A DNA stretch of 34,581 bases from Flavobacteriaceae bacterium (lineage in GTDB: Bacteria > Bacteroidota > Bacteroidia > Flavobacteriales > Flavobacteriaceae): positions 1-34,581 of the forward strand of contig NVRM01000017.1 in NCBI GenBank assembly GCA_002400885.1. Reading direction: 5' to 3'. The notes beneath the pieces were generated by a model that was given only the letters and a program-made list of their open reading frames with translations, was not told the origin of the DNA and made no database searches. The translations under genes were made by a program, and so were the position numbers. This document shows positions 4,921 through 34,581 of the stretch, one piece after another (the first letter of the stretch is position 1; each line of letters opens with the position of its first letter).

Positions 4921-5277
4921 TGGTTTGTGTTGTTTTTTATGATTATTTATTTTTACAGCTAAATCGATTGTGTTATATATTGCAATAATGCTATTTTGTT
5001 GGTGATTTGCTAAAAAACAATATTGAGTGCGTACTTTGAGATCGCTGTAAGCTGGTAGTAATGTTAGATTACGTGGTTTGTTGTAAGTCATATTATTACA
5101 TAAATGTTCTTTCAATGATGCCTCAACTATTTCATTTTTACAGAAAAAACTTTTGCTAGGGTATCATGAATACACTTGAATTTTAATTTGAAGATTTTTA
5201 AACTTGACGTTTTTCAAAATATAGATAGATAACATGTGTTGTAATTTATTACCTTTAACCAAATTAAAAATTCTTTT
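4921..5277. other. Intergenic region between divergent thrA and nhaC
   Basis: About 360 bp with no supported gene. A weak reading frame of 75 codons on the - strand runs through it and ends at 4888, but its composition is not protein-like. An isolated AATCGATT palindrome is at 4962-4969. No full TTG/TAnnTTTG promoter for nhaC was found; the best -7-like string is TACCTTTA at 5250-5257, without a correctly spaced TTG. Confidence 0.5.
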
Positions 5278-18371: not shown

Positions 18372-18394
18372 GATAGTATGTTTTAGTTAGTAGT

Positions 18395-19732
18395 TTATTG
18401 GTTTTTTTTAGACCAGCTAGTTATTTTATGTCCCCATAAAGCAAAGAATAAAATCATGGCATAACAAGGGATTAAAATCCAGTAGCTACTAGTAGCTGCG
18501 CTAGCCATTGCGTCAGAATGATTCACCCCTGAAGCGATGAGTACTTCTTTTCCTGAGTCTACCAATCGTCCATATAATAAAGGAATAATCGCTCCCCCAG
18601 AAATAGCCATTACCAATAGGGCAGAGGCTGTTTTTGTATGTTTTCCAAGTCCTTCTAAGGTTAGAGGCCACACTGCTGGCCATACCAATGCATTTGCGAT
18701 ACCTAAAGCAGCAACAAACATAATAGAGGTAAATCCTGTGGTGGATAGGATACAGGTACTAAATATAATTCCTAGTAAAGCGCTTACTTGTAAGGCTGTT
18801 TTTTGTTGGATGTATTTAGGGATTAAGAAGACACCTAAACCGTAAGTGGCGACCATGGCCATTAATGTTAATGTGGTGAAAAACTTCGCGTCTTCTGCAG
18901 TAAATCCTAAAGAAATTCCATAAGCAATAATCGTATCTCCTGCAATTACTTCTGCTCCAACATATACAAATAAGGTCAATACACCTAACCATAAATGTGG
19001 GAATTGGAAGATGGTTTTAGTACTTACGTCTCCTGTTCCTTCAGTTTCTAAAGGGGCTGCTTCTACATCCGGTAATGGTGCTTTTCTAATAAGTAAAGCC
19101 AATACAAATAATACTGCTGCCATGACTAAATATGGTGTAAAAACACTGTCTGCCATTCCATCTAACATGGTGGCTTTTTCTGTGTCAGATACATGTGCTA
19201 ATTTTTCTTTCACATCATCAATACCTGAAAGTAACAAGGCTCCAAATATTAAAGATCCTAGGGCACCAGCTACTTTATTAGCAATTCCCATAATGGCAAT
19301 ACGCTTGGCCGCACTTTTCATTGGGCCTAAAATAGTAATGTAAGGGTTAGACGCAGTTTGTAAAATCGTCATCCCTAATCCTTGGATGAAAATAGCGATT
19401 AAAAACAACCAGTAAGTTCTAGATTCTGCAGCGGGAATAAATACTAAAGCTCCGATAGCCATGATAAATAATCCCAATGACATCCCTTTTTTATAGCCTA
19501 TTTTCCCTAAGATATAAGAAGCGGGTAGTGCCATTACCACAAACGAAATATAAGAGGCCGAGGCCACTAAGTAAGATTGTGCATCGGTTAATTCGTTAAT
19601 GGTTTTCATAAACGGAATTAAGGCACCGTTTATCCATGTTATAAATCCAAAAATAAAGAATAATCCGGCAATAATAAGTATTGGTACAAGCGTATTATTT
19701 TTACCTGCTGGGTTGTTGGTTGTTGTTGACAT
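18395..19732 (-). CDS. FHS-family MFS sugar:H+ symporter (NagP/GluP-like)
   Basis: 445 residues with 12 predicted membrane helices, the FucP/GluP (fucose-galactose-glucose/H+ symporter) type of major facilitator. The N-terminal block FFIFGFITWINGALIPFMK is characteristic of this family, as are FIQGLGMTILQTASNPYI and ANALVWPAVWPLTLEGLGKH. Relatives carry glucose, galactose, fucose or N-acetylglucosamine across the inner membrane. Given the NahK-like kinase and NagB in the same operon, GlcNAc or GalNAc is the most likely substrate (inference). It lies 14 bp after the kinase gene and 23 bp before nagB. The central loop between helices 6 and 7 (around residues 215-235) is acidic and poorly conserved, as usual. 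Confidence 0.88.
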   Translation of the reverse strand: MSTTTNNPAGKNNTLVPILIIAGLFFIFGFITWINGALIPFMKTINELTDAQSYLVASASYISFVVMALPASYILGKIGYKKGMSLGLFIMAIGALVFIPAAESRTYWLFLIAIFIQGLGMTILQTASNPYITILGPMKSAAKRIAIMGIANKVAGALGSLIFGALLLSGIDDVKEKLAHVSDTEKATMLDGMADSVFTPYLVMAAVLFVLALLIRKAPLPDVEAAPLETEGTGDVSTKTIFQFPHLWLGVLTLFVYVGAEVIAGDTIIAYGISLGFTAEDAKFFTTLTLMAMVATYGLGVFLIPKYIQQKTALQVSALLGIIFSTCILSTTGFTSIMFVAALGIANALVWPAVWPLTLEGLGKHTKTASALLVMAISGGAIIPLLYGRLVDSGKEVLIASGVNHSDAMASAATSSYWILIPCYAMILFFALWGHKITSWSKKNQ

Positions 19733-19746
19733 AATAAGTGGTTTTA

Positions 19747-20838
19747 TTAATTTACCGTAGACGCGTTGATTGTCATAGCATCATATTGTTGGGTTAAACT
19801 TTCTATCAATTTGAATTGATTTTTTGCACGGTCTAAATTGTGCATCGTATATTTTGTTTTATAGTATACATCATCATTTAAAAAGTCCGTTAGAAAGCGT
19901 AAGGCCATAATAAATATCATGGTTTTTGCACCTAAGGGTAAATGGTCTATTTCGACTTGAGACAATGTGTCTTTGGTTTCTCCTAAAAACCCTTTTACAT
20001 AGGCTTTATAATAAGTGATATTAAAGTTTACCAAGTCTAAATTTTTCTCATCCTCATTGGCTGTATTACAAATAGTACGGATGGCATCTCCAAAATCGTA
20101 ATGTACAATTCCAGGCATCACCGTGTCGGTATCTATGACACACAAACCTTTGTTTTCTTGATCAAAAAGAATGTTAGAAATTTTGGTGTCATTATGTGTA
20201 ACACGTGTTTTTATTTTTCCAGCTTCCTTTAAATATTGGATAATGTGCATTTCCTCTTTTAGGTCATCTACAATGTCAATATATTGTTGGGCTTGAGATA
20301 AGCGTTCTTCAGAGGCGTTTTTTAAGGCATCGTTAAATTGCTCAAAACGGAAGGACATGTCGTGAAACTTAGGAATCACATCTATCAAGACAGCTGCGTC
20401 AAAATCATCCGTTAGGTTTAAAAAATTACCGATTAATTTTCCGCCTTCATAGGCTACGTTTTCATCTGTTACGGCTTCATAAGTGATGCTGTCATGAATA
20501 TAAATCATCACATTCCAGTAATTTTTGTCGGCATCTAAGTGATAATACAAACCGGTAGAGGCTGGTAAAAATGACAATACGCGACGTTTGAGCTCTGCAG
20601 CTGGTAAGTGATTCATTTTTTTTAATAAATGCTGACTTACATGTGTTTTATTAGAAATTAAGCCGGGAACATCCTTAAATACACCGTGGTTGATACGTTG
20701 TAAAATATAAGAAACTTCTTTTTCGGTTTTAATTAAATAAGTGTCATTAATATGACCAGAGGCTAATTCTTTATAAGAAGCAACAGCATCTGATTTGTCA
20801 AAATTAGTGAATATTGATTTTAAGTGATCTAGTATCAT
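19747..20838 (-). CDS. nahK: NahK-like N-acetylhexosamine 1-kinase (APH fold)
   Basis: 363 residues, the length of Bifidobacterium NahK, which it matches over its whole length as far as I recall that sequence. Features: GHINDTYLI and SYILQRINHGVF in the N lobe; KFHDMSFRFEQFNDAL; the aminoglycoside-phosphotransferase catalytic motif RVTHNDTKISNILFD (about 208-222); the metal-binding IDTDTVMPGIVHYDFGD; ANEDEKNL; and ALRFLTDFLNDDVYY with TKYTMHNLDRAKNQFKLI near the end. NahK transfers phosphate from ATP to the anomeric OH of GlcNAc or GalNAc. The nucleotidyltransferase gene 1 bp upstream would turn the product into a UDP-sugar. AmgK (MurNAc/GlcNAc 1-kinase in cell-wall recycling) is the alternative relative and should be tested. 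Confidence 0.85.
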   Translation of the reverse strand: MILDHLKSIFTNFDKSDAVASYKELASGHINDTYLIKTEKEVSYILQRINHGVFKDVPGLISNKTHVSQHLLKKMNHLPAAELKRRVLSFLPASTGLYYHLDADKNYWNVMIYIHDSITYEAVTDENVAYEGGKLIGNFLNLTDDFDAAVLIDVIPKFHDMSFRFEQFNDALKNASEERLSQAQQYIDIVDDLKEEMHIIQYLKEAGKIKTRVTHNDTKISNILFDQENKGLCVIDTDTVMPGIVHYDFGDAIRTICNTANEDEKNLDLVNFNITYYKAYVKGFLGETKDTLSQVEIDHLPLGAKTMIFIMALRFLTDFLNDDVYYKTKYTMHNLDRAKNQFKLIESLTQQYDAMTINASTVN

Positions 20839-20839
20839 A

Positions 20840-21748
20840 TTACCAAAGATTTATTGGATAAATTTTGTGATTTTTCAATGTTTCAATAGCCGATTGTACC
20901 ACGGCTTTGTCTTCTTTATAAGTGACTCCAAACCATAGGGAAGAAGATTTTAACACCTGTACGCTGGCCTTTTTTTCTTTGATCATTTCGTTTACGATTA
21001 AAGGAATAAAGAACTCAGATTTTGGGGCGTCGTGATTTTTTTCTAAAAAGTTTTCAAATAATGTTTCGGCATAGTCAAAACATTTATGAGTGAATCCCCA
21101 AAAGTTCATGGAAACAATGGTGTTTTCATCTATTGGAATAAGTTCTCCATTTTCATCTTTACGAAATAATTCAGAAGCTATTTTTTCTATATGTGTGCGT
21201 TCCGTTACATCTGTTAATAAGCCTTCCTTATTTACGACACATTCACCCCGAGATACAAAACCATGTTCTGAAATGGTGTTTTTTAATTGATAAGCAATCA
21301 TATTAAACTGAGTGGAATCTTGTGGCGTTTCCTGTAAGGATTTTGCCATGATTTCAAAAGCTTCTCTCCCGTAAAAATCATCTGCATTAATGATGGCGAA
21401 ATTTTCGTGAACCACTTCTTTTGCCATTAACAAAGCATGTCCTGTTCCCCAAGGTTTTTCTCTTTTGTTAGGCTTGAATTTTTCAGGTATGTTTTCCGTT
21501 TCTTGGAATACATAGGCAACTTCTGCTTTTCCTATTAGCTTTTTATCAAAAATAGCTTTGAAATCAGCTTCAATGTTTTTTCTGATAATAAATACAAATT
21601 TTCCGAATCCTGCTTGCAAGGCATCATAAATTGAAAAATCTAAAATAGTATCTCCTTCTGGAGTAAAACTATCCAATTGTTTTAAGCCTCCATACCTGCT
21701 TCCGATTCCGGCCGCTAAGATAACTAGGGTTGGTTTTATAGTGTTCAT
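20840..21748 (-). CDS. Sugar-1-phosphate nucleotidyltransferase
   Basis: 302 residues, a Rossmann-type nucleotidyltransferase. The nucleotide loop is at the N terminus, LVILAAGIGSRYGGLKQLD. FIIRKNIEADF, GTGHALLMAK and the metal-site region INADDFYGREAFEIM follow, then FWGFTHKCFDYAETLFENFL and SSSLWFGVTYKED. The enzyme joins a nucleoside triphosphate to a sugar-1-phosphate. Next to a NahK-like kinase (start 2 bp after its stop, tight coupling) the expected reaction is UTP plus GlcNAc-1-P or GalNAc-1-P to the UDP-sugar. It lacks the C-terminal acetyltransferase half of GlmU. It is the first gene of the operon, 110-170 bp downstream of three regularly spaced near-palindromes. Substrate is inferred from context only. 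Confidence 0.82.
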   Translation of the reverse strand: MNTIKPTLVILAAGIGSRYGGLKQLDSFTPEGDTILDFSIYDALQAGFGKFVFIIRKNIEADFKAIFDKKLIGKAEVAYVFQETENIPEKFKPNKREKPWGTGHALLMAKEVVHENFAIINADDFYGREAFEIMAKSLQETPQDSTQFNMIAYQLKNTISEHGFVSRGECVVNKEGLLTDVTERTHIEKIASELFRKDENGELIPIDENTIVSMNFWGFTHKCFDYAETLFENFLEKNHDAPKSEFFIPLIVNEMIKEKKASVQVLKSSSLWFGVTYKEDKAVVQSAIETLKNHKIYPINLW

Positions 21749-21856
21749 TTTTAGTTGATTGAGGTTTTATTATGTATGGATAACTGTGAGCTCTCCCTAC
21801 TTGGTTCCGCTAAATTAGACAGGATTATTGGATTTACAAAAGTTTTTCGGCGAAAA

Positions 21857-21916
21857 TGTGCTCGAACACACGAAAAAAGTGTTCTCGAGCACACATAAAG
21901 GTGTTTTCGAGCACAC
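21857..21916. promoter_or_regulatory. Three phased near-palindromic sites (GTGYTCGARCAC type)
   Basis: TGTGCTCGAACACA (21857-21870), GTGTTCTCGAGCACAC (21879-21894) and GTGTTTTCGAGCACAC (21901-21916), each centred on TCGA. Centres are 23 and 22 bp apart, close to two helical turns. They lie upstream of the amino-sugar operon. A weak - strand -7-like box AACTTTTG (21844-21837) would put site 1 over the -33 position. Sites 1 and 2 can also pair with each other as one RNA hairpin with a 2-nt bulge, so an RNA role is an alternative. Confidence 0.6.
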
Positions 21917-21968
21917 TTTTATAATTTTAGTAGAATTTTGTGTCTTTGTGAACTGTAATATGTGCTTT

Positions 21969-22190
21969 TTAGATGGTAGGAATTAATTGTTTGTATGCTT
22001 GTGTCACATGAGGAGTAAACGATATTGAAAGATGACCTTGCGATTCAAAATGATGGATTGAGAGTATCTGACAATTTTTTTCAGGAACTAGTATAGATGT
22101 GAAACTCACAAAGGGTAGAAATGTAGATGTTTTTGTAGCTAGTATTTTACTTGTATTGTAAAGGCTCAAAAGAGGAGCTATCCAAGGGGC
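21969..22190 (-). pseudogene. Possible gene remnant, 73 open codons
   Basis: The frame from a stop just above 22190 to TAA at 21969 reads as plausible protein, e.g. LVPEKNCQILSIHHFESQGH and the ending HVTQAYKQLIPTI, but has only a TTG (22169) as start and no promoter. The tail looks like the C terminus of a globular enzyme, but I could not place the family. It may be the decayed 3' end of a lost gene, or chance. Confidence 0.25.
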
Positions 22191-22478
22191 TTAGAGTAGG
22201 TGTAAAAAATACAGTGAGATAATTCCTTTTGTGTTTTGAATATTCATACAGAATTTGAGGTGTTCAAGACGGCGTTACTAGTGAGAGAGGTTACATTCAA
22301 ACCCTAAAGAGCATGATTTTACAGCGGTTTTTTCTATAATAAAAACAACTAATTATTTCTTTTATTGATCTAAAAAGGTTATTGTCAGTGTGTAATGTGA
22401 GGGAGAGTCTGTGTTTTAATCCTTTTTTCTTTAAAACAATGCAATACTTGAATGGGTTTTAAATGTTGATAAATAGCA

Positions 22479-22509
22479 TTGTACAACAACAAATAAAAGT
22501 TTAAATTTG
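22479..22509 (+). promoter_or_regulatory. Predicted lacI-family regulator promoter
   Basis: TTG (22479-22481), 20 bp, then TAAATTTG (22502-22509), exact on both Bacteroidetes elements. The transcription start would be near 22516, about 50 nt before ATG 22566. No palindrome overlaps it, so autoregulation is not evident. Confidence 0.65.
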
Positions 22510-22565
22510 ACCGCTCGAATAAGAAAGCAGATTTAAGGGGATATAGAAGATCTTTATACTGATTA

Positions 22566-23612
22566 ATGGATAAAAAATATACAATAAAAGACATTGCTGC
22601 ATTGGCTGGAGTATCTAAAGGTACTGTGGATAGAGTGTTGCACAAACGAGGTAAAGTTTCAGAAACAGCATTGGTGAAAGTCAATAATGTATTGGATGAA
22701 ATTGATTATCAGCCTAATCCTATGGCTAAAAACTTACGAATTAATAAAGTTTTTAAATTGTTTGTATTGATACCCAATGTAGGGAAAGATTCCTTTTGGT
22801 TACCTTGTAAGGATGGAATTCAAGAGTTTGAGGATGCCTATAAAGGCTTTGGAATTAAAGTAGAAAATTACTTTTTTGACCCTGCGAGTACCGCGTCTTT
22901 TTTGGAAACAGCAAGAGGAATGATTGCACTTCAACCAGATGCGATTCTAACTGTTCCTATTTTTGCTAAAGAAGCCCATGTGATTGTAAAGGAATGTTAT
23001 GAGGCAGGAATTAAAGTCTCTATTTTCAACAACTTTATTGCCTCTGATTATGTACATAATTTTATTGGTCAGGACTTATATCAGAGTGGGAGAGTAGCGG
23101 CAAATTTGTTACACATGCTCCTTAAAAAAGGACATATAGGAATCATTCATATTGATGAAGAATCCAGGAATGCCACCCACTTACAAGAAAAAGAAAAAGG
23201 ATTTCGAAATTATTTTTCAGGATTAAAATCTGATAATTATCAAATATCAACCTTAAGTATTTCGCATAAAGACCCGGTGAAATTCAAAGCTACCTTATTG
23301 GAATTTTTAGATGAGAACGAAAACTTAGAAGCGATGTTTGTCACGATCTCTAAATCACATTTAGTGGCGGATGCCATCAAAGATAGAAAGCAAAGGCAAT
23401 TAATTGTAGGCTATGACTTGGTCGATAAAAATGTCCATTATTTAAAAAATGGAGGGGTAAATTTCTTAATCAACCAAAAGCCAAAAGAACAAGTAACATT
23501 GGCATTGAATTATTTAGCCGAATATTTCTTGTTCGATAAACCCATTCCTTCTGAAGTATTATTACCTATTGTAATTGTAAATGCAGAGAGTGTGGATGGA
23601 TATTTGGTGTAG
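22566..23612 (+). CDS. LacI-family transcriptional regulator
   Basis: 348 residues, normal for LacI proteins. The N-terminal helix-turn-helix and hinge are clear: YTIKDIAALAGVSKGTVDRV then LHKRGKVSETALVKV and the hinge region IDYQPNPMAKNLR (residues about 4-60). The rest is a periplasmic-binding-protein-like ligand domain, e.g. KVFKLFVLIPNVGKDSFWLP at its start, DAILTVPIFAKEAH and FINQKPKEQ-like signature FLINQKPKEQVTLALNYL near the end. It would bind DNA as a dimer or tetramer and respond to a sugar. It is divergent from the amino-sugar operon and convergent with the KDG operon, so it may control either. Its TAG stop touches the stop of the CBM9-like gene, with no terminator between. Confidence 0.93.
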   Translation: MDKKYTIKDIAALAGVSKGTVDRVLHKRGKVSETALVKVNNVLDEIDYQPNPMAKNLRINKVFKLFVLIPNVGKDSFWLPCKDGIQEFEDAYKGFGIKVENYFFDPASTASFLETARGMIALQPDAILTVPIFAKEAHVIVKECYEAGIKVSIFNNFIASDYVHNFIGQDLYQSGRVAANLLHMLLKKGHIGIIHIDEESRNATHLQEKEKGFRNYFSGLKSDNYQISTLSISHKDPVKFKATLLEFLDENENLEAMFVTISKSHLVADAIKDRKQRQLIVGYDLVDKNVHYLKNGGVNFLINQKPKEQVTLALNYLAEYFLFDKPIPSEVLLPIVIVNAESVDGYLV

Positions 23613-24257
23613 TTATTTTACAAATACGAGTTTTCCAAAAGAACTTGCAATATGGAAATTAGGAGTTTCTGTCTGTGGGTTTACCCATGGAATCCATGTA
23701 GGTTCGTAAGTTCCGTTCGCTTGTTTATTATATTTTGCACGGTAAATTCCTGTTTCAATCACATTGTTTTTTAAGAGATCTAAGGCTTTTAGAGACTTTA
23801 AGCTTAGGGCTATTTCTACGGTAAAATGAGTTTTTGAGATATGAGATTTTACTGATAGCTCTTCTGAGGGCCATTGCCAGTTAAAATCAAAGTCATTATT
23901 AGGCTTGGCTTTGAAATCCATGACTCTCGGACTCGGGTCAATTTCCAAACAATAATAAGGGTTCAATTGGTCGTTACTTCTAAAAAACAATTCTACTCTG
24001 TCTGATTCTCCAATGGTTTCTGTGCAGATAGTGCTCTTACTATCGTTCAGATGTATTTGAGAATCTTCTACTTGGAATTTAAGATATAGGTGGCTTTCAC
24101 TCCAGAGTGCTTTAAATGCTATTTGTTTAATAGGAGCATCATCCCAGGGAGAACAAAAATCTGTCATTTCAGTTGCTTTGTCCCACTGTACATCATCACC
24201 TTTACCAGATAAAATAATGTTTGTTGATGCGATATGTGCTACGTTGTATGTTTTCAT
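23613..24257 (-). CDS. CBM9-like carbohydrate-binding protein
   Basis: 214 residues from the start I choose, ATG 24257 (MKTYNVAHIAS). A longer frame opens at 24314, but its extra 19 codons run through the stem and T-tract of an intrinsic terminator, and their Phe/Ile-rich sequence is just the T-tract translated, not a real signal peptide (no Lys/Arg n-region). The protein has the family-9 CBM-like beta pattern: ALWSESHLYLKFQVEDSQI, SDRVELFFRSND, YYCLEIDPSPRVMDFKAK, and TGIYRAKYNKQ with EPTWIPWVNP. Without a signal peptide it would act in the cytoplasm, unusual for a sugar-binding domain. It is last in the KDG cluster and would need readthrough or its own promoter. Role unknown. Confidence 0.72.
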   Translation of the reverse strand: MKTYNVAHIASTNIILSGKGDDVQWDKATEMTDFCSPWDDAPIKQIAFKALWSESHLYLKFQVEDSQIHLNDSKSTICTETIGESDRVELFFRSNDQLNPYYCLEIDPSPRVMDFKAKPNNDFDFNWQWPSEELSVKSHISKTHFTVEIALSLKSLKALDLLKNNVIETGIYRAKYNKQANGTYEPTWIPWVNPQTETPNFHIASSFGKLVFVK

Positions 24258-24281
24258 AAGTTTTAACTCTAAAAAAATGAT

Positions 24282-24321
24282 AAAAAAAATCACATGAAAA
24301 TACGAGATTTCCATGTGATTT
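24282..24321 (-). terminator. Intrinsic terminator between the MFS and CBM9-like genes
   Basis: On the - strand AAATCACATG (24321-24312), a 15-nt loop, CATGTGATTT (24296-24287), then a run of T continuing to 24282. The 10-bp stem is perfect. It follows the MFS stop by 16 bp and precedes the chosen CBM9-like start. Confidence 0.8.
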
Positions 24322-24336
24322 GCAATGTAGGTTTAT

Positions 24337-25665
24337 TTATTTAATTTTTGTAATTGGTTCTAAGTTTTCGTCTACACCTTCTAGGTTTGGTAATAATAAG
24401 TGTATGATAAGTAAGATGACTAAGTATAAAAGTCCAGCCACTAAGAACATCCAAAAGTAGAATGAATTTCCACTAGCATCTAGTCCATTACCCAATACAA
24501 AATCCACTACCATACCAGCAATAGCTCCCACCATACCTCCAATTCCTACAACTGAGGCAATGGCTTTTTTAGGCATAACGTCAGAGACAAGGGTAAATAA
24601 GTTGGCAGACCAAGCTTGGTGTCCACCAGAAGCCAATGCAATCAATCCAACAGCAACCCATACATTATCTGTTAAGGCGGCTAATGAAACTGGGGCAATA
24701 CATAAAGCACAGATTAATAAAGACATTTTACGTGCAGCATTTAAACTCCATCCTTTGTCTATAAATATTTTTGAAAGGTATCCTCCACCAATACTTCCGA
24801 TATCGGCAACTACGTAGATTACTACTAAAGCCCCTCCAAGTTCTTTCATACTGTCTAATCCAAACTGTTGTTTGAAAAAGATACCACTCCAAAACATAAA
24901 GAAAAACCATACTGCATCCGTAATCTTACCCACAGCAAATGCCCAAGTTTGACGTAATGGAAGTACTTTAGACCACGATAATTTCTCTTGTTTTACTGTA
25001 GGGTCTTGTGGTTGAGAGTCTTGGTTGATATACGCCAATTCTTCCGGAGTAACCTTTGGGTGTTCCTCTGGTTTGCGATAGGTTCTTAACCATAATACAA
25101 CCCAAATCATACTAAAAAAACCTGTCATTAAAAAGGCATACTGCCAGTTATCTCCATTACTAGAAACTACCAATGGAATAAGAAGTGGTGCTAAGACTGC
25201 TCCAATATTGGAACCTGCATTAAAAATACCTGTAGCAAAAGCACGGTCTTTTTTAGGGAACCATTCTGCCACTGTTTTTACTGCTGCCGGAAAGTTTCCT
25301 GCTTCTCCAAATCCAAGTCCAAAACGTGCAGCCATAAATCCGATGAATGCAAATGCGGGTCTAACTGCAGCGTGCAACATTCCGAAAATTGACCAGATAA
25401 TAATAGATAAGGTGTATCCAAACCGGGTGCCGAATCGATCAATGATACTACCCATGGTAATCATACCAATGGCATAGGCTGCTTTAAAAGCCATGTTAAT
25501 ATACCCGTAATCGGCATTGGTCCAGTTAAATTTTTCTTGTAGTGTTGGGCCTAAAATTCCCATAATACTACGGTCCATATAATTAATGGTCGTAGCTAAA
25601 AATAGCATGGCAAGGATACGGTATCTGTAATTCCCAGCCGGCTTACTTATGTTTAATGTACTCAT
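24337..25665 (-). CDS. MFS hexuronate-type transporter (anion:cation symporter family)
   Basis: 442 residues, 12 membrane helices. The N terminus RYRILAMLFLATTINYMDRSI and the block FGEAGNFPAAVKTVAEWFPK followed by KDRAFATGIFNAGSNIGAVL are signatures of the anion:cation symporter (ExuT/GudP) branch of the major facilitators, which carry hexuronates, glucarate and related sugar acids with H+. The gene order kdgK-kdgA-transporter supports uptake of a uronate or KDG-like acid; the exact substrate (galacturonate, glucuronate, KDG or unsaturated uronate) cannot be read from sequence. The gap to kdgA is 39 bp and holds a hairpin; a terminator follows the gene. It belongs to a different family from the FHS transporter at 18.4-19.7 kb. 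Confidence 0.9.
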   Translation of the reverse strand: MSTLNISKPAGNYRYRILAMLFLATTINYMDRSIMGILGPTLQEKFNWTNADYGYINMAFKAAYAIGMITMGSIIDRFGTRFGYTLSIIIWSIFGMLHAAVRPAFAFIGFMAARFGLGFGEAGNFPAAVKTVAEWFPKKDRAFATGIFNAGSNIGAVLAPLLIPLVVSSNGDNWQYAFLMTGFFSMIWVVLWLRTYRKPEEHPKVTPEELAYINQDSQPQDPTVKQEKLSWSKVLPLRQTWAFAVGKITDAVWFFFMFWSGIFFKQQFGLDSMKELGGALVVIYVVADIGSIGGGYLSKIFIDKGWSLNAARKMSLLICALCIAPVSLAALTDNVWVAVGLIALASGGHQAWSANLFTLVSDVMPKKAIASVVGIGGMVGAIAGMVVDFVLGNGLDASGNSFYFWMFLVAGLLYLVILLIIHLLLPNLEGVDENLEPITKIK

Positions 25666-25679
25666 TGTAATTGATTTTA

Positions 25680-25696
25680 TCGCTTAGGGAAAGCGA
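25680..25696 (-). promoter_or_regulatory. Intercistronic hairpin kdgA / MFS transporter
   Basis: TCGCTT-AGGGA-AAGCGA (6-bp stem, 5-nt loop) fills the gap between the kdgA stop and the transporter start. On the - strand it is followed by TAAAATC, not a T-tract, so it is more likely an mRNA-stability or processing element than a terminator. Confidence 0.5.
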
Positions 25697-25704
25697 AGGG
25701 TTAT

Positions 25705-26373
25705 TTATTTTCTAACGGTCTTTATAATTTCTAAGGCTTTTGCAACGTTTTTTGCTAACAATGCATAATCTTGATTGGCAATAATTTCCTTAGAAATTAA
25801 TTGTGATCCCATTCCTACACAAGTAACTCCGGCACCAAACCATGCTGCTAAGTTTTCTTTTGTAGGTGATACACCTCCTGTAGGCATAATGTTAGTCCAA
25901 GGTTGAGGGCCTTTAATTCCTTTTACAAATTGAGGTCCGTAAATATCTCCAGGGAATAATTTGATGATTTCACATCCTAATTCTTCGGCTCTTGTAATTT
26001 CTGTAAGTGTTCCACAACCAGGAGACCACAATACTTTACGGCGGTTACATGCTAGGGCTATGTCTTCTCTTAATACAGGTGTTACAATAAAGTTTGCACC
26101 CAAAGCCATATATAATGAGGCAGCTCCTGCATCTGTTACAGATCCCACTCCCATAATCATTCCTGGTAATTCTGCGATGGCATATTTGGTTAATTCACCA
26201 AAAACTTCATGTGCAAAATCTCCTCTTGCGGTAAATTCCATCAATCTTGCTCCTCCATCGTAACAAGCTTTTAATACTTTTTTACTCAGTTCAATGTCGC
26301 TGCTAAAGAACAAAGGAATCATCCCTGTTTCTTTCATTACTGTTGCAACTTCTATACGTGTAAATTGTGCCAT
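25705..26373 (-). CDS. kdgA: 2-keto-3-deoxy-6-phosphogluconate (KDPG) aldolase
   Basis: 222 residues, normal for KDPG/KHG aldolases. It splits KDPG into pyruvate and glyceraldehyde-3-phosphate in the cytoplasm. The class I aldolase residues are present: Glu46 in MEFTARGD, the Schiff-base lysine Lys138 in EIIKLFPGD, and the phosphate-binding PTGGVSPTKENLAAWFGAG. GVGSVTDAGAA and WSPGCGTLTEI also match. The motif MEFTARGD differs from the proteobacterial VTLRT form but is common in Bacteroidetes copies. It follows kdgK after 83 bp that contain a strong hairpin and precedes the transporter by 39 bp; with kdgK it completes the route from KDG to central metabolism. Function is firm; the upstream sugar (alginate, pectin or another uronate) is not. 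Confidence 0.94.
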   Translation of the reverse strand: MAQFTRIEVATVMKETGMIPLFFSSDIELSKKVLKACYDGGARLMEFTARGDFAHEVFGELTKYAIAELPGMIMGVGSVTDAGAASLYMALGANFIVTPVLREDIALACNRRKVLWSPGCGTLTEITRAEELGCEIIKLFPGDIYGPQFVKGIKGPQPWTNIMPTGGVSPTKENLAAWFGAGVTCVGMGSQLISKEIIANQDYALLAKNVAKALEIIKTVRK

Positions 26374-26392
26374 TTTATATTGTTTTTTATTA

Positions 26393-26431
26393 AAGGAGTG
26401 CTGTAAATAAAATTATTTAACAGCCCTCCTT
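26393..26431 (-). promoter_or_regulatory. Intercistronic hairpin kdgK / kdgA
   Basis: AAGGAG-t-GCTGT on the left pairs with ACAGC-c-CTCCTT on the right (11 pairs, one mismatch) around an AT-rich loop. On the - strand it is followed by TTTAATAAAAAAC, a poor T-tract, so full termination is unlikely. It may protect the kdgK end, set the kdgK:kdgA ratio, or block early translation. Confidence 0.55.
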
Positions 26432-26456
26432 GTACTAATACTAATGATTATTGTGA

Positions 26457-27497
26457 TTAGCGAGCGACTCTTCCTGAAGCGTCTCCTCCCATTAATTTTT
26501 CTACTTCTTCTACGGTTACCAAGTTGGCATCTCCTTTAATAGTGTGTTTTAAACAAGAAGCTGCTACGGCAAAATCCAATGCGTTTTGGTCGTCTTCAGG
26601 ATATTTTAATAATCCGTAAATTAATCCTCCCATAAATGAATCTCCACCACCTACACGGTCTACGATATCTGTAATTTGATACTGTCTGGTTTCTAACATT
26701 TTGGTTCCATCATATAAAACACCTGCCCATGTATTGTGTGATGCAGAGATAGATCCGCGAAGTGTCGTAATAACCTTCGTTGCTTTTGGGAATTTGCGCA
26801 TCATTTGTTTACAAACTGATAAAAAAGCTTCTGCCTTTACATCATGTCCTTGGGTGGTAATGTCCAACCCTTCTGGCTTGATATTGAAATGTTTTTCTGC
26901 ATCTTCTTCATTTCCTAAAATAACATCACAATATGAGGTTAATGCGGTCATAATAGCTTCTCTGTCTCCTCCGTAATTCCATAATTTGGCACGGTAATTT
27001 AAGTCGGTAGAAATGGTAATTCCCATACTACTAGCTACTTTTACAGCTTCTAAACAAACATCTGCTGCTCCTTGTGAGATGGCAGGGGTAATTCCCGTCC
27101 AATGGAACCATTCTACCCCTTCAAAAGCTACTTTCCAATCGATCATTCCTGGTTGAATTTCTGCAATGGAAGAATGGGCACGATCATAGACTACTTTAGA
27201 ACCTCTTGATACTGCTCCAGTTTCTAAAAAGTAAATCCCTAAGCGGTCTCCTCCATAGATAATCTTGTCTACATTTACACCTTGTTTTCTCATTTCCATC
27301 ATCGCACATTTTCCTATATCGTTCTTAGGTAAGCGTGTAATGAAATCTACAGGAACTCCATAGTTTGCTAATGAAACTGCTACATTCGATTCTCCTCCTC
27401 CATAAACAACATCAAAGTTGTTGGCTTGGGAAAATCTTAAAAATCCTTGAGGAGATAATCTTAACATGATCTCTCCAAATGTTACTACTTTTTTCAT
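26457..27497 (-). CDS. kdgK: 2-keto-3-deoxygluconate kinase (PfkB family)
   Basis: 346 residues, normal for PfkB/ribokinase-type KDG kinases. It phosphorylates KDG with ATP to KDPG, the substrate of the aldolase encoded next. The N-terminal FGEIMLRLSPQG and VYGGGESNVAVSLANYG form the sugar-binding lid region, and the C-terminal DIVDRVGGGDSFMGGLIYGL carries the catalytic Asp in the family's GxGD motif. VILGNEEDAEKHF is the usual mid-domain nucleotide-side motif. It is the first gene of the operon, with a Bacteroidetes promoter and a 24-bp palindrome just upstream. PfkB kinases overlap in sequence (fructokinase is the alternative), but the neighbouring kdgA supports KDG. Confidence 0.92.
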   Translation of the reverse strand: MKKVVTFGEIMLRLSPQGFLRFSQANNFDVVYGGGESNVAVSLANYGVPVDFITRLPKNDIGKCAMMEMRKQGVNVDKIIYGGDRLGIYFLETGAVSRGSKVVYDRAHSSIAEIQPGMIDWKVAFEGVEWFHWTGITPAISQGAADVCLEAVKVASSMGITISTDLNYRAKLWNYGGDREAIMTALTSYCDVILGNEEDAEKHFNIKPEGLDITTQGHDVKAEAFLSVCKQMMRKFPKATKVITTLRGSISASHNTWAGVLYDGTKMLETRQYQITDIVDRVGGGDSFMGGLIYGLLKYPEDDQNALDFAVAASCLKHTIKGDANLVTVEEVEKLMGGDASGRVAR

Positions 27498-27550: not shown

Positions 27551-27581
27551 TAAAGGTATAAAAAAACCATTAAAAATACAA
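27551..27581 (-). promoter_or_regulatory. Predicted kdgK promoter
   Basis: On the - strand TTG (27581-27579), 20 bp, then TACCTTTA (27558-27551), one base off TAnnTTTG. The transcription start would be near 27545, about 48 nt before the kdgK ATG. The -33 box lies inside the 24-bp palindrome. Confidence 0.55.
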
Positions 27582-27595
27582 TCGATTGTATTTTT
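27572..27595. promoter_or_regulatory. 24-bp perfect palindromic operator of the KDG operon
   Basis: A perfect palindrome with the core TACAATCGATTGTA (27577-27590), extended by A5 on the left and T5 on the right. It is centred on CG, the usual layout of LacI-family operators, and covers the -33 box of the kdgK promoter, so a bound protein would repress. The LacI gene at 22566 is a candidate regulator. Confidence 0.7.
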
Positions 27596-27691: not shown

Positions 27692-28060
27692 TTAATTTGA
27701 TTTGTTTTTCAAAATCAATAATAAGACTAGAGGAGCGCCCCAATTCGCAGCACGTTCTACAAATGCCCAAATGGGTTCTCCTGCAAATGGACGCACAAAG
27801 GCTGTAGCAAAGGCCCAAATAGCTGCCCAAGCCAGTATGTATTTGTTAGGTTTTATTAAAATGAATAAAGCCACTAAAATATCTAAATATCCAATTCCAA
27901 TAACCATTGATTTGGCTGTTTCCATGGGGAAACCTACGACTTGTAAATAGCGATACCAAGATTGATAGCCGAGAATTGCAAACATGCCGTGACCTATGTA
28001 GGTACAACTGATGGCAATTCGGAGTATGTATTGTACTGTATTGGTTTCCTTTAAATTCAT
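27692..28060 (-). CDS. DoxX-like small membrane protein
   Basis: 122 residues with four hydrophobic segments (about 10-30, 48-65, 70-88, 95-117), the size and layout of DoxX-type proteins. TYIGHGMFAILGYQSWYRYL near the N terminus and GIGYLDILVALFIL are like members of that broad family, which has no single known function. It lies 194 bp upstream of kdgK on the same strand, but the kdgK promoter and operator sit between them, so it is probably a separate unit. No signal peptide beyond the first membrane helix. The family label is moderate; function unknown. Confidence 0.6.
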   Translation of the reverse strand: MNLKETNTVQYILRIAISCTYIGHGMFAILGYQSWYRYLQVVGFPMETAKSMVIGIGYLDILVALFILIKPNKYILAWAAIWAFATAFVRPFAGEPIWAFVERAANWGAPLVLLLILKNKSN

Positions 28061-28514: not shown

Positions 28515-31500
28515 ATGATTAAGAGATTAACTATAGGAGCATATATTTGCTTTGTGAGTTTTTTTACTTCATTTTTAAATGCACAATGTGGTGTTAATAT
28601 TGGAGAAGAAGGAGAACGTGTTGTTTGTAGTACTCAGTCCTTGTTTTTTAGAGCTGGATTAACGGGTGCTTATAGTGATGCGCGTTGGGTACGATTAGAT
28701 CCTAACGATAATTCTATTGAAGTAACTAGTGATTTTCCTCCCGCCATTAATTATAATGAGTTTGACCTTAAATCAGACATTACTTCGGCTGATAATACGG
28801 GTTTGGTGCCAGCAGGGACATATCATTTTAGATTAAAATACAGCTGTGAAGGGGACGAAAAAGAAGCTTCCGATATTGTTAAAATTAAAGTATTGGATAA
28901 TACCTTAGCGGATGTTAGCGAAGATTTCGACAATCCTTCTTTTGTAGAAATTACGACTCCAAATAAAGACTGGGCTCCATACTTAGCAGATAGGGTTACC
29001 TTGGATCCTGATTATTCAAAATATTATAGTTATATCGGTTGTTTTAATGATGTTATTAGTATTACAGGAAATGGAGGGAAAGTAACGGGTGAAATTGGTG
29101 AATGGGTATTGGTTAAAAAGTTTAGTGCAAATCAAATAGTTCATACTCATAGTGGAGATCAGCTTACTATTAATTTAGGTGTTTATCCAAAATTGAGTTA
29201 TGTGATTTATGATTATATAATTAGCAATCCTTCTAATAATTCATGTGTTTCAAAAATTAGAGTTAAAATTCAAAATTCTGCGGGACAACCTGTAAATGCA
29301 GGTGTGGACACTACGATTGGTTGTTATACTACCACCACAACTTTTAAGGCGAATGCATCAATACCTTCTGTTGGGGGACAAGGAAGGTGGAGTTTTGTTT
29401 CAGGCCCCAATACACCAAGAATCAGTAATGTTTATGTGAATAGAGCCACTTTTTCTAACTTAATAGAAGGTGAATATGTTTTTAGATGGACTGTAATAGG
29501 AGTCTGTATAAATGGATCGGACGAAGTTAATATTTCAGTATTGCCGGCTAGCCAATCCGTATCTGTTATTAATGTTCCCAATTCAAAAATCTTCCTTTGT
29601 GATTTTAGTGTAACGGAAGTTGTTTTAGAGGCAACGGAGCCTTTGCTTAAAGGAGAAGAAGCTCTATGGGAATTGAAGTCTCCAGTAAATGAAATTCCAA
29701 CTATAACCATTGATCATCCTACTACAGGAAATACGATTGTAAGAGGTTTGAATGGAGCTATTCCGAAGTATGTGTTTAAGTACAGTATAAGTAATGAATT
29801 TGGATGTGTTTCTTCAAAGAATGTGGAAGTGTATTTTAATGAGTCACCAGAATTAGATTTATCAAATGTAGCGGATGGTATCCAAATACTTGCCTGTGGA
29901 ATAAGTGATACTACAATAGAATTTAATTATAGAGCAGGTACAGCAATTACGTATAAGTTTTTATCAGGTCCTAGCGGTTTTCCAACAAAAACACTTTATA
30001 GTGCTAGAAATACTACGGCAAAAACAGGGAAGATTTCATTAAAAGAACTTGCCATAGGAGTGTATGTTTTGGAAATTAAAAATAGTAATGACAAAGCCAC
30101 ATTAAATACCGCATGTGACGCAGCCGTTGAAAATGTAACTATTTTTGTAAGTGCAAAAATAGAAAATCCTATTTTAGGAGAAAAACAAATAATTACGTGC
30201 CTAGATTCAACCGCAAATTTATTAGGAAATGAAATCTTTTTATTTGGAACAAATGTAGTTGCTAATGTAGCTATAAATTGGTCGCAAGTGTCTGGTCCAG
30301 TGTTAGCAACTATCGAAAACAAGAACAATAGGGAGTCCCTTGTAACGGGTTTTTCGGAGAAAGGGACGTATGTATTTAGGTATACCGTAAATAGTGGTCC
30401 TGGATGTGAGGAGAAATTTGCGGATATGGAGGTACTGGTAGTAAAGGATCCAGAACCTCCCTATGCAGGTGTGGATAAAAGTGTATGTATTAACGAAACT
30501 ATAACTTTGGATGCAGAAATTTCAGATGGACAAATTGGTGAATGGACCGTGAGTCCTTCTGCAGATGTTAGTTTTTCTGATACGACCGATCCTAAAGCAA
30601 TTGTGACGGGCTTAAGTGTTCCTGAAAACGCATATACCTTTACGTGGACCGTAGAAAACGAAGCCGTTTTTAATTGTGGAACACCTGCTTCTTCTTCTTT
30701 TATACTTACGACAGGGGTTAGAGATATTGGAACTCAGGCTGATGCTGGACCAGACCAATGTGTCGAAAAAGAAGCAAATGGAGATACGGTGTTTTATTTA
30801 CAAGGTAATAGGCCAGAAAGCCATCAAGGAATATGGTTTGTAGATCTTGGCGAAAATGTATTGATAGCCGATATTAATGATCCATTATCCAAAGTTACCG
30901 TGTCGAATATGAACTCTATGAATTATGAGTTTACATGGAAACTGGAAAAGGAAGGAGCCTTTTGTGAAACGGAAGATGTTGTAAATATTTCGATTAGCCA
31001 TAACCCAGATGGAGTTATTCTAGATGCGGGAGAGGATTTAGAATTTTGTGGAACTAGTTTTCAATTCTCTGCCACGAGTAATGTGTCAGATTATCAAAGT
31101 GGAACTTGGTTGTTAGTATCAGGAATAGTAGGTTTCGAAATTGATGATCCTAGCAGTTTAACCGCAAATGTTTCTAATTTAGTACCTGGAAATTATACAT
31201 TTAAATACCTGTTAAGTTTTGAAGGATGTACTATTATTTCAGATATAGTTAATATTAGAGTTGGTGCAGAAATTAATACGGTAAATGCAGGTGAGGACGC
31301 TTTTGTTTGTCATACTCTAAATACCTATCAGTTACAAGGAAGTCCATTAGTTGATGGAGAAATAGGGGTATGGTCTATTCTTGACGATACGGTAGGAACT
31401 CCTATTTTTAGTGATGTTTCAGATCCGAATGCTCATATTTCTAGTCTTACCTCTGGAACGTATAATTTAAGATGGAGTGTTACCAATAGTTCGGCTTGTG

Positions 31501-34500
31501 ATATACAAAAGGACGATGTTGTAATTACGGTAGATACGCAAGTTTTTACGGGTGATGATCAAAAAATTTGTATTGCAAACGGTGCCAATTTTGCCAATGC
31601 GATACTTACAGCCCAACCGAGTCAGATAGATGGGGAATGGACATTGTTTTCAGGGCCCAATGGAAGTAATATAGAGGATTATTCAGCATTAAATATCAAT
31701 CAGGGAATAGGGAGTGTAAATGCTGCTGTTGAAGGTTTAATAATAGGAGGTTTTACGTTTAAATTTACAGCAAACCCTTCTGAAATTGGATGTTTAGAAG
31801 AAAACAGCGTATTGATTAACGTACAGGTAACTGGAGCCATTAGTGCAGGTCCTAACGCAGGGGTAGATCGTTCCTTGTGTTTGTCAGATTTAGTAGATTT
31901 AGGAAATAAAATCACATTAAATGGGAATGCTTTTCCTTCGGACGGTACTGTGAATAATGCCTATTGGAATATTGCATCTGCACCCAAAATACATTCAATT
32001 TCCTTATCGGATATTAATTCTCCTAATAGTGATGTTACGGGTAAGTTTTTTGCGGGTATTTACGTTTTTGAATGGGTCTATGAGAATAATTGTAGTATCA
32101 TAAAGGATATTGTAAAAGTACAGCTTTTTGAAGATAATATTTCTGCAGATGCAGGATTAGATCTACTAATTTGTGCCTTGGATCAACCAGTTATGAATGC
32201 CAAATTCCCATTGAATGCTATCGGAAAATGGTCGGTAATTGAAGAGCCATTAGGAGCGGCATTATCTATTAATGCACCTAATGATCCAAAAACATCCATT
32301 AATAATTTAAGAGTCCCAGGAACCTATAAATTACAATGGTATGTGAAAGGGCTTGGTGGGTGTGGAGAGGATTCTGATGAGGTGTTAATTGTTGTGAAAG
32401 CGCTTCCAAATATCAGCAATGCTAGCCTCAAACAATGTGATTCAAATACGCTAACGGAATTAGGAGGTGTTTTTACACTTTCTGATGCAAATAGTCAAAT
32501 TTACACAGCAGATTTAAGTGAGGTAACAATTAGTTATTATTCAAATATAGAAACTTTAGGAGATCCGTTAGTTGATAGGTATGCTACAATTACGGACCAT
32601 ACCATTGTATATGCAAAAGTAGAAGATACTACGACAGGTTGTTCCGATGTTTCTGCACTGGAGCTGATTGTTGAACAAACCAAAGTTCCCGTAATTACAA
32701 GTCCCCAATCTTTTTTAGGGACAGCACATACATTGGCGGAAATACGCATAGAAAATGGAGCTAATATTAAATGGTACAGCGACCCCGAAGGTTTAGTCCC
32801 AGTATCTGAAAATACAGTAATTTCTGATTCTACCGAGTTTTATGCTACACAAACACCCGATGGTTGTGTAGAAAGTATCCCTATAAAAGTAATTATAAAT
32901 ATTAGAATACTTGATGATTTTGATAATGATGGAGTACCAGATATAACTGATATTGATGATGATAATGATGGGATACTTGATGTTCACGAGACAGGAACAA
33001 ACCTAGAAGGAGTATTAAACTCCTTAAATATAGATTCGGATAATGATGGATGTACAGATGCTAACGAAGCTTATAATGACCTATCCACAGATCCAAATAA
33101 TGATGGGACCTACGGCGGGAAATTAGAGGGGGAATCAAGTGTAGAAGTAAATGGAGGGATTAAAGATCTTCTTTATCCAGCAGATGTAAGCGGATATGAA
33201 AGTTTATCAAATTCAACATCTTCTAATGGCCCTACGTCCATAGTAAATCAATCTGTAAATATAGAGGTTAATGAATTGGATACGGTTCAAATGTCAGGTC
33301 TTCAATTGTCAGGAAATGAAACATTAGTGTTTTCTTGGGAATATAGAGCGACTGTTGATGATGAATGGATAGTAATTGTAGGAAGTTCAATTGCAAGTAA
33401 TTTTCAGGATATAAATACATTGAACCCTCGTATCGTAAACACACCGTTTTCTTTTGGTCAATATGAATTTAGAAGCTATGTAACAAGTACTAGTAATATT
33501 TGTTTGGGATTATATAGTGATGTTTTTAAGTTGTCAGTACATGAATTACCAAAAGACACGCTTGTTGTAACAGGAGATAACACCATTTGTTTGGGTGAAA
33601 CTAGTATTATAACTGTTAAATTATCTGAGATAGGTGTTCGATACGAACTCAGAAATGAGAATGATACCACGATCGTATTACTAGCTGTAAATGGAACTAG
33701 TTTTGACATTAGTTTTAGTGTAGAACCTACTGAAACTTCTACTTATAGTTTGTTGGCTGTAAATGTTGTCAGCTCAGCGTCCATTGTATTGAAAACAAAA
33801 GTAATAATTACTGTAAAATCAATTCCGGAAGTTTCTTCTGTTGTATTAGGAGATACTGTTTGTGAGCGTGAAACGGCCACAGTAATTGTAAAAAATACGA
33901 ACAGTTCTTTTTGGTATACATTAAGAAATGATATAGATGGTAGTGTTGTTGGAATCCCTTTACAAGGGAATGGAAGTGATCTTAGTTTTAGTGTCGAAAA
34001 TTTAACACTAACAAGTACATTTAATGTATTGATATCAAACTCTAATTGTGAAGCTATATTGTCAGATAAACCGATTGTAGCGATTATAACAGCACCAGAC
34101 TTACCTGTAGTTTTAGATTCAAATATTTCCTATTGTTTAAATGATACCGCTTCTTTACTAAGTGCAAATGGGGAGCGTTTAAAATGGTATGATCAATCGG
34201 GAGTACTATTAGCACAGGCACCAACTCCAAACACTAGTTCCGCTGGAAGTGCGCTGTATTATGTTACGAGTACAAATGTTAGTGGTTGTGAAAGTCTTAA
34301 AAAACAAATAAAAGTATCGGTTTATGAGAAACCTATAGCCGTTTCAGATTATGAAACTAGCCTAAATAATGTACTTACATGTTCTAATTTGACGGTAAAA
34401 TTGAATGCGAGTAAGTCATCTTCTTCAAATGGTGTTTTGAGCTATGAGTGGACTGGGCCGAATGCATTTACCGCAAGTACTTCTTTGATTGAAGTATCCG

Positions 34501-34581
34501 AACCTGGACAATATAATTTGAAAGTAATAATTACTGCAACAGGGTGTTTTTCTATAGATTCAATTACCGTAGGAGAAAATA
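28515..34581 (+). CDS. Giant secreted surface protein with Ig/PKD-like repeats (5' part only)
   Basis: Open from ATG 28515 to the window end, 2,022 codons, with the stop beyond. A signal peptide (cut after FLNA, residue 23) starts it. From about residue 260 to 1295 runs a series of roughly 80-110-residue modules, each of the form AGxD..C.. then GxW, then DP.A.V.GL..G.Y.F.W and a second Cys before a D.V.I.V strand. Examples: NAGVDTTIGC, YAGVDKSVC, ADAGPDQCV, LDAGEDLEFC, NAGEDAFVC. A thrombospondin type 3 calcium-binding block (DDFDNDGVPDITDIDDDNDG and DSDNDGCTDANE) lies at about 1466-1530, then more Ig-like modules. This is the build of gliding adhesins such as SprB, exported by the type IX system. 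The C-terminal sorting domain, if any, is outside the window. Confidence 0.88.
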   Translation, partial: MIKRLTIGAYICFVSFFTSFLNAQCGVNIGEEGERVVCSTQSLFFRAGLTGAYSDARWVRLDPNDNSIEVTSDFPPAINYNEFDLKSDITSADNTGLVPAGTYHFRLKYSCEGDEKEASDIVKIKVLDNTLADVSEDFDNPSFVEITTPNKDWAPYLADRVTLDPDYSKYYSYIGCFNDVISITGNGGKVTGEIGEWVLVKKFSANQIVHTHSGDQLTINLGVYPKLSYVIYDYIISNPSNNSCVSKIRVKIQNSAGQPVNAGVDTTIGCYTTTTTFKANASIPSVGGQGRWSFVSGPNTPRISNVYVNRATFSNLIEGEYVFRWTVIGVCINGSDEVNISVLPASQSVSVINVPNSKIFLCDFSVTEVVLEATEPLLKGEEALWELKSPVNEIPTITIDHPTTGNTIVRGLNGAIPKYVFKYSISNEFGCVSSKNVEVYFNESPELDLSNVADGIQILACGISDTTIEFNYRAGTAITYKFLSGPSGFPTKTLYSARNTTAKTGKISLKELAIGVYVLEIKNSNDKATLNTACDAAVENVTIFVSAKIENPILGEKQIITCLDSTANLLGNEIFLFGTNVVANVAINWSQVSGPVLATIENKNNRESLVTGFSEKGTYVFRYTVNSGPGCEEKFADMEVLVVKDPEPPYAGVDKSVCINETITLDAEISDGQIGEWTVSPSADVSFSDTTDPKAIVTGLSVPENAYTFTWTVENEAVFNCGTPASSSFILTTGVRDIGTQADAGPDQCVEKEANGDTVFYLQGNRPESHQGIWFVDLGENVLIADINDPLSKVTVSNMNSMNYEFTWKLEKEGAFCETEDVVNISISHNPDGVILDAGEDLEFCGTSFQFSATSNVSDYQSGTWLLVSGIVGFEIDDPSSLTANVSNLVPGNYTFKYLLSFEGCTIISDIVNIRVGAEINTVNAGEDAFVCHTLNTYQLQGSPLVDGEIGVWSILDDTVGTPIFSDVSDPNAHISSLTSGTYNLRWSVTNSSACDIQKDDVVITVDTQVFTGDDQKICIANGANFANAILTAQPSQIDGEWTLFSGPNGSNIEDYSALNINQGIGSVNAAVEGLIIGGFTFKFTANPSEIGCLEENSVLINVQVTGAISAGPNAGVDRSLCLSDLVDLGNKITLNGNAFPSDGTVNNAYWNIASAPKIHSISLSDINSPNSDVTGKFFAGIYVFEWVYENNCSIIKDIVKVQLFEDNISADAGLDLLICALDQPVMNAKFPLNAIGKWSVIEEPLGAALSINAPNDPKTSINNLRVPGTYKLQWYVKGLGGCGEDSDEVLIVVKALPNISNASLKQCDSNTLTELGGVFTLSDANSQIYTADLSEVTISYYSNIETLGDPLVDRYATITDHTIVYAKVEDTTTGCSDVSALELIVEQTKVPVITSPQSFLGTAHTLAEIRIENGANIKWYSDPEGLVPVSENTVISDSTEFYATQTPDGCVESIPIKVIINIRILDDFDNDGVPDITDIDDDNDGILDVHETGTNLEGVLNSLNIDSDNDGCTDANEAYNDLSTDPNNDGTYGGKLEGESSVEVNGGIKDLLYPADVSGYESLSNSTSSNGPTSIVNQSVNIEVNELDTVQMSGLQLSGNETLVFSWEYRATVDDEWIVIVGSSIASNFQDINTLNPRIVNTPFSFGQYEFRSYVTSTSNICLGLYSDVFKLSVHELPKDTLVVTGDNTICLGETSIITVKLSEIGVRYELRNENDTTIVLLAVNGTSFDISFSVEPTETSTYSLLAVNVVSSASIVLKTKVIITVKSIPEVSSVVLGDTVCERETATVIVKNTNSSFWYTLRNDIDGSVVGIPLQGNGSDLSFSVENLTLTSTFNVLISNSNCEAILSDKPIVAIITAPDLPVVLDSNISYCLNDTASLLSANGERLKWYDQSGVLLAQAPTPNTSSAGSALYYVTSTNVSGCESLKKQIKVSVYEKPIAVSDYETSLNNVLTCSNLTVKLNASKSSSSNGVLSYEWTGPNAFTASTSLIEVSEPGQYNLKVIITATGCFSIDSITVGEN

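Follow-up and report, generated by a model that had tools for sequence, protein, structure and literature searches.

A perfect palindrome upstream of kdgK as the probable operator of a KdgR-type LacI-family regulator in Flavobacteriaceae

Introduction

Which protein would recognise the 24-bp perfect palindrome that lies in front of kdgK, the gene for a 2-keto-3-deoxygluconate kinase, in a genome of the family Flavobacteriaceae? The palindrome is part of a stretch of 34,581 nucleotides (GenBank assembly GCA_002400885.1, contig NVRM01000017.1), here called the window. A gene for a LacI-family regulator (22566-23612, plus strand) lies 4 kb away; it is the nearest regulator gene and of the right family, and a preliminary description of this DNA had named its product as the candidate regulator acting at 27551-27595, a span bounded by the -7 box of the kdgK promoter on one side and the outer edge of the palindrome on the other.

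The literature offers few points of comparison. LacI-type genes figure among the regulators of alginate clusters (8/29), with no operator given in the available text of PMC7874173, and the alginate cluster of strain UMI-01 is described without the word LacI in that of PMC4306948. A study of LacI-family regulators (PMC4052901) sampled Bacteroides, and the term "Flavobacter" is absent from its main text as far as this is accessible. Open-licence full texts yielded no description of the motif or of a flavobacterial LacI/kdgR regulon, and a 12-mer of the motif turned up there only in a paper on a plant retrotransposon.

Results and Discussion

The palindrome and its gene neighbourhood

The palindrome precedes a presumed operon of four minus-strand genes: kdgK itself (26457-27497), of the PfkB family (PF00294 above cut-off, no NCBIfam model above cut-off); a kdgA-type KHG/KDPG aldolase gene (25705-26373; NF005499 above cut-off); an MFS transporter gene (24337-25665), of the galactonate/hexuronate type by best match and below the NCBIfam cut-offs; and, as the last gene, one for a CBM9-like protein (23613-24314). 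The LacI gene at 22566, previously placed at the far end of this same operon, is on the opposite strand: it adjoins the CBM9-like gene convergently and, on its other side, is transcribed away from a second minus-strand operon, made up of nucleotidyltransferase-like, phosphotransferase-like, NagP-like and glucosamine-6-phosphate-deaminase-like genes (the amino-sugar operon). Elsewhere in the window, a gene for a DoxX-like small membrane protein (27692-28060) immediately precedes the kdgK promoter in the same orientation, as it also does in genomes G003 and G199, and an ORF of 2022 amino acids, open at the window end (28515-34580), begins with a signal-like sequence and contains many domains that look repeated.

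The palindrome, AAAAATACAATCGATTGTATTTTT (27572-27595, no strand), is perfectly symmetric about a central CG, the next pair outward no longer being symmetric, and contains a 14-bp core, TACAATCGATTGTA (27577-27590), which ends 79 bp upstream of the kdgK start codon. No other perfect palindrome in the window reaches 24 bp; two with arms of at least 8 bp occur there, the second being 16 bp long (4358-4373). The region is AT-rich and the palindrome's arms finish in runs of A and T, as might befit a chance palindrome or a structural element that binds no protein. However, 150 dinucleotide-preserving shuffles of the window contained on average 0.93 palindromes with arms of at least 8 and 0.08 with arms of at least 10, and none with arms of at least 12 (24 bp); the core is moreover conserved in promoters across genera. 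A chance origin was rejected on the shuffles and is contradicted by this conservation, and the explanation as a whole retains a negligible probability. The perfect 24-bp symmetry and CG centre reported in the preliminary description are real. Even palindromes with a central CG are characteristic of LacI-family operators, for which 140 to 30 bp is given as the usual range (PMC4052901, in the text available), and the present site shares form and upstream distance with such operators generally, differing in that its symmetry is perfect over 24 bp. Judged from its sequence, the palindrome is a candidate LacI-type operator, ordinary in kind.

Within its own genome (2.96 Mb in 154 contigs, 75% complete) the core, searched for with no more than 1 mismatch, has exactly two sites, and a reversed control pattern has one under the same limit. 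Matches with 2 mismatches (23 places beyond the two exact ones; reversed control pattern, 10) were counted as background. The bases flanking the 14-bp core are variable in relatives.

Relation to the kdgK promoter

On the minus strand, the half-site TTG (27581-27579) within the palindrome is followed, after 20 bp, by TACCTTTA (27558-27551). These are the proposed -33 and -7 elements of the kdgK promoter, and they resemble the flavobacterial -33/-7 consensus TTTG/TANNTTTG quoted in PMC6847099. The overlap with the -33 region noted previously is thus borne out by the position of TTG inside the palindrome, 20 bp from the -7 box, with the caution that -33 is a weak motif in this group, much less evident in Flavobacterium johnsoniae than the -7 motif according to the accessible text of the same source. 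The geometry was surveyed in 83 distinct promoters of kduI, kdgR and kdgK that lie behind the CAATCGATTG core (spacings of 8 to 59 bp, counted without tie-breaking). A TAnnTTT(G/A) box lies 16-22 bp from the half-site TTG in 67 of them, with 13, 29 and 10 matches at 18, 19 and 20 bp (52 at 18-20), 6 at 16 bp, 5 at 22 bp, and 0 to 4 at each remaining value from 8 to 59. It is mainly because the spacing clusters at 18-20 bp that repression through covering of the -33 region is proposed.

A second copy beside kdgR on contig C55

The only other copy of the palindrome found in the 75% complete genome, identical over 24 bp, is located outside the window. On contig C55 it separates kduI-kduD from a divergently oriented LacI-family gene (G000:C55:4096-5109, G000 being this genome) that is here called kdgR, a name given by function and by analogy with KdgR of Bacteroides. 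Four LacI-type genes were found in the genome, and the palindrome is upstream of the C55 gene only. There, a single palindrome supplies the TTG to both divergent promoters, and in each of them the distance to a TAnnTTT(G/A) box is 19 bp. KduI, KduD, KdgK and KdgA catalyse consecutive steps that convert an unsaturated-uronate product to pyruvate and glyceraldehyde 3-phosphate, and the two palindrome sites therefore cover the whole route. Further along C55, past kdgR, there are genes for a hybrid-sensor-like protein, SusC/SusD-like proteins, a PL8-type lyase and a sulfatase, together with a GH88-like fragment that matches below its cut-off.

Linkage of the core to KdgR across the family

The same 199 genomes of the family were searched for the exact core, for the C55 LacI (KdgR) and for the window LacI. 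The 20 matches taken as KdgR orthologues, spread over 19 genomes, all have at least 54% identity and are set well apart from every paralogue, the next best match being at 45%. The exact core was found in 17 of these 19 genomes, as against 4 of the 180 lacking an orthologue, and in three of those four it lies within predicted ORFs; the corresponding Fisher p value (6e-19) is not a true probability, as the genomes are related and not independent. The core thus tracks a single LacI orthologous group, and it is often situated upstream of the regulator's own gene. Two KdgR genomes lack the exact core, and with up to 1 mismatch all 19 have it (reversed control pattern, 10/19). Among KdgR genomes the core is mostly located in the kdgR-kduI gap, upstream of kdgR or of divergent kduI, an arrangement that recurs in named genomes of Lutibacter, Flavobacterium, Wenyingzhuangia, Seonamhaeicola, Aureibaculum and Maribacter.

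A similar picture was obtained from 51 KdgR loci, which come from two sources with some contigs present twice and are hence not 51 independent genomes: the exact core is present in 36 and a match with up to 1 mismatch in 44, while six control patterns were each seen in 0-1. Seven of 39 loci with identities of 45% or less (L185, L187-L192) had been omitted from this count beforehand, and the CAATCGATTG core was found in none of these seven. All 51 proteins fall into a single clade (support 0.95), and the recognition helix SSTVSRAL is present in nearly all rows.

The two regulators can be separated by genomes that have only one of them. With KdgR and without the window LacI, 7 of 8 genomes carry the core, and with both regulators 10 of 11 do; with the window LacI alone the count is 0 of 14, so that the palindrome does not follow this protein across genomes. 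The core does occur in 10 of 25 genomes with a window-LacI orthologue, yet all 10 also have KdgR. At up to 2 mismatches it is found in only 1 of the 25 orthologue loci of the window LacI; these carry a different motif, of the TGTGYTCGARCACA type, in 25 of 25. This motif, searched for as TGTGTTCGAGCACA with up to 2 mismatches, gave 42 sites in 100,788 bases, a descriptive count given that the pattern was picked by eye after inspection of the loci; seven control patterns were found in 0 to 2 loci. The recognition residues also differ, KGT in the window LacI against SST in KdgR, and the window-LacI recognition helix SKGTVDR was detected in 24 of the 25 loci, the text pattern missing L087. In spite of its proximity and family, the LacI protein encoded at 22566 is a most improbable binder of the palindrome. 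Its own proposed operators are ATGTGCTCGAACACAC (21856-21871), GTGTTCTCGAGCACAC (21879-21894) and GTGTTTTCGAGCACAC (21901-21916), three CG-centred 16-bp sites (no strand) about 22 bp apart and 108 to 168 bp upstream of the amino-sugar operon (nucleotidyltransferase-kinase-nagP-nagB), and from the sequences it is predicted to form with them a separate LacI regulon. Of the repressor site originally postulated at the kdgK promoter, the LacI-type operator stands and the named protein does not: the genome search that the preliminary description had suggested links the motif to a different LacI protein, that of C55, elsewhere in the genome, an outcome which it had itself listed as speaking against its assignment.

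Another regulator might bind the palindrome instead, either a GntR-type protein like AusR of Zobellia galactanivorans or a LacI paralogue missing from the incomplete assembly. AusR, a GntR-family protein, represses alginate genes in a flavobacterium and is released by degradation intermediates (PMC8286568, PMC7874173, as far as their text is available). Furthermore, 25% of the genome may be missing, so that a closer regulator in it is possible, and the kdgK of other genomes lies opposite a LacI paralogue whose operators are related. Set against this, the core follows KdgR across genomes, and its sites are on C55 and C85, not beside any of the three GntR-type matches on C40, C63 and C93 of the 75% complete genome, on which ground the GntR-type candidate was rejected; the kdgK-linked LacI paralogue, for its part, goes with GTTCAATCGATTGAAC or GCTTAAACGTTTAAGC. 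A search for this paralogue in G000 and in G003 (75% and 80% complete) did not find it. We consider the whole of this alternative very unlikely, if slightly less so than binding by the window LacI.

Further sites in other genomes

For KdgR, sites precede uronate-to-KDPG genes, namely kduI-kduD and kdgK-kdgA here and further genes elsewhere. Additional exact sites were found before DctP-type (TRAP) transporter genes (G119, G002 and G121); before GH88 or GH88-like genes (G169, and G162 with a match just below cut-off); before a GH28 gene (G061); before a gene that matches several glycosidase families weakly (G021); and before the glucuronate isomerase gene uxaC, followed by kdgK-kdgA (G173). A core site also precedes an MFS gene in L157 and L183. 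The transporter, GH88, GH28, uxaC-kdgK-kdgA and MFS genes behind these sites would fit a uronate regulon. Some further sites, annotated in part, lie inside predicted ORFs or before SusC-like genes. In locus L098, of the Galbibacter-like genome G030, two CAATCGATTG cores 23 bp apart (about 4980-5014) precede a susC-like gene, and there is no close KdgR orthologue.

kdgK under different LacI paralogues

A near-full-length kdgK (83% identity or more) is present in 15 of the 19 KdgR genomes, at 16 loci. The core lies within 300 bp upstream of it at only two of the 16, both of this genus, which counts against assigning the palindrome to KdgR. At nine loci another LacI paralogue lies opposite kdgK, with GCTTAAACGTTTAAGC-like palindromes in six cases and GTTCAATCGATTGAAC-like ones in three, and at five loci neither the core nor such a palindrome was found. 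Of four genomes of the genus, all have the kduI/kdgR site and three have the kdgK site; G200, of the same genus, lacks the core at its kdgK copies. As seen in the KdgR genomes, the predicted operator at kdgK is conserved in this genus only. There is about an even chance, in our estimate, that kdgK changed its regulator in this lineage, its own LacI paralogue being replaced by a KdgR operator, so that the whole kduI-kduD-kdgK-kdgA route came under one repressor.

Paralogues divergent from kdgK were recorded at L126, L127, L128, L129, L132, L133, L134, L135 and L138. The recognition triple tracks the type of palindrome: PAA or AAA goes with GCTTAAACGTTTAAGC-like and PSA with GTTCAATCGATTGAAC-like sequences, while KdgR has SST (in a few cases AST or PST) and the window LacI KGT. 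This correlation over few loci may possibly represent a readable specificity code for flavobacterial LacI proteins.

Proposed mechanism and relation to known systems

Taken together, the sequence of the palindrome, its identical second copy, the linkage to KdgR across genomes, the pathway neighbours and the promoter spacing make it very probable that the palindrome is a KdgR operator, blocking the -33 region and linking the control of kduI-kduD to that of kdgK, kdgA and the transporter gene; these five lines were computed, and from them we infer binding by KdgR, repression, the effector and the operon. A KdgR dimer would sit on TACAATCGATTGTA, with one subunit on each half-site, and would cover the kdgK -33 region, blocking the start of RNA polymerase. 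On the identical 24 bp between kdgR and kduI it would shut both divergent promoters, and kdgR would be autoregulated. KdgR would be released by an intermediate in the breakdown of unsaturated uronates, 2-keto-3-deoxygluconate being the most likely one, and kduI-kduD and kdgK-kdgA-transporter would be switched on together.

The nearest described system is KdgR (BT0487) of Bacteroides thetaiotaomicron, a LacI-family regulator of a glucuronate/galacturonate regulon (PMC3878776, PMC4052901). To judge from the available text, the two systems share the protein family, the phylum and control of glucuronate/galacturonate use and the 2-keto-3-deoxygluconate route; what sets the present system apart is that its genes are flavobacterial and that its regulator lies beside kduI-kduD, and the likeness is drawn from the published descriptions. 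The AusR regulon resembles the present one, as far as its published text is accessible, in the repression of uronate-polymer genes in a flavobacterium and in release by degradation intermediates (here proposed), but belongs to a different protein family, and the present sites are not beside a GntR gene.

In the window, the amino-sugar operon and the kdgK operon adjoin (16443-27497), each tied to a different LacI protein. C55 for its part has the PL8-type lyase, the sulfatase and the GH88-like fragment; possibly, each of the two operons handles one half of the same glycosaminoglycan-type disaccharide, with a separate repressor for each half.

Conclusions

Little regulation has been described in Flavobacteriaceae for the last common steps in the breakdown of alginate, pectin and glycosaminoglycan-type polymers, and the reading of the palindrome as a KdgR operator would assign both a regulator and an operator to these steps in many members of the family. 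The nearest regulator gene proved a poor guide to the operator's protein, and kdgK provides a case of one gene that has apparently passed between two related repressors. The 14-bp sequence lets further uronate genes and transporters be predicted.
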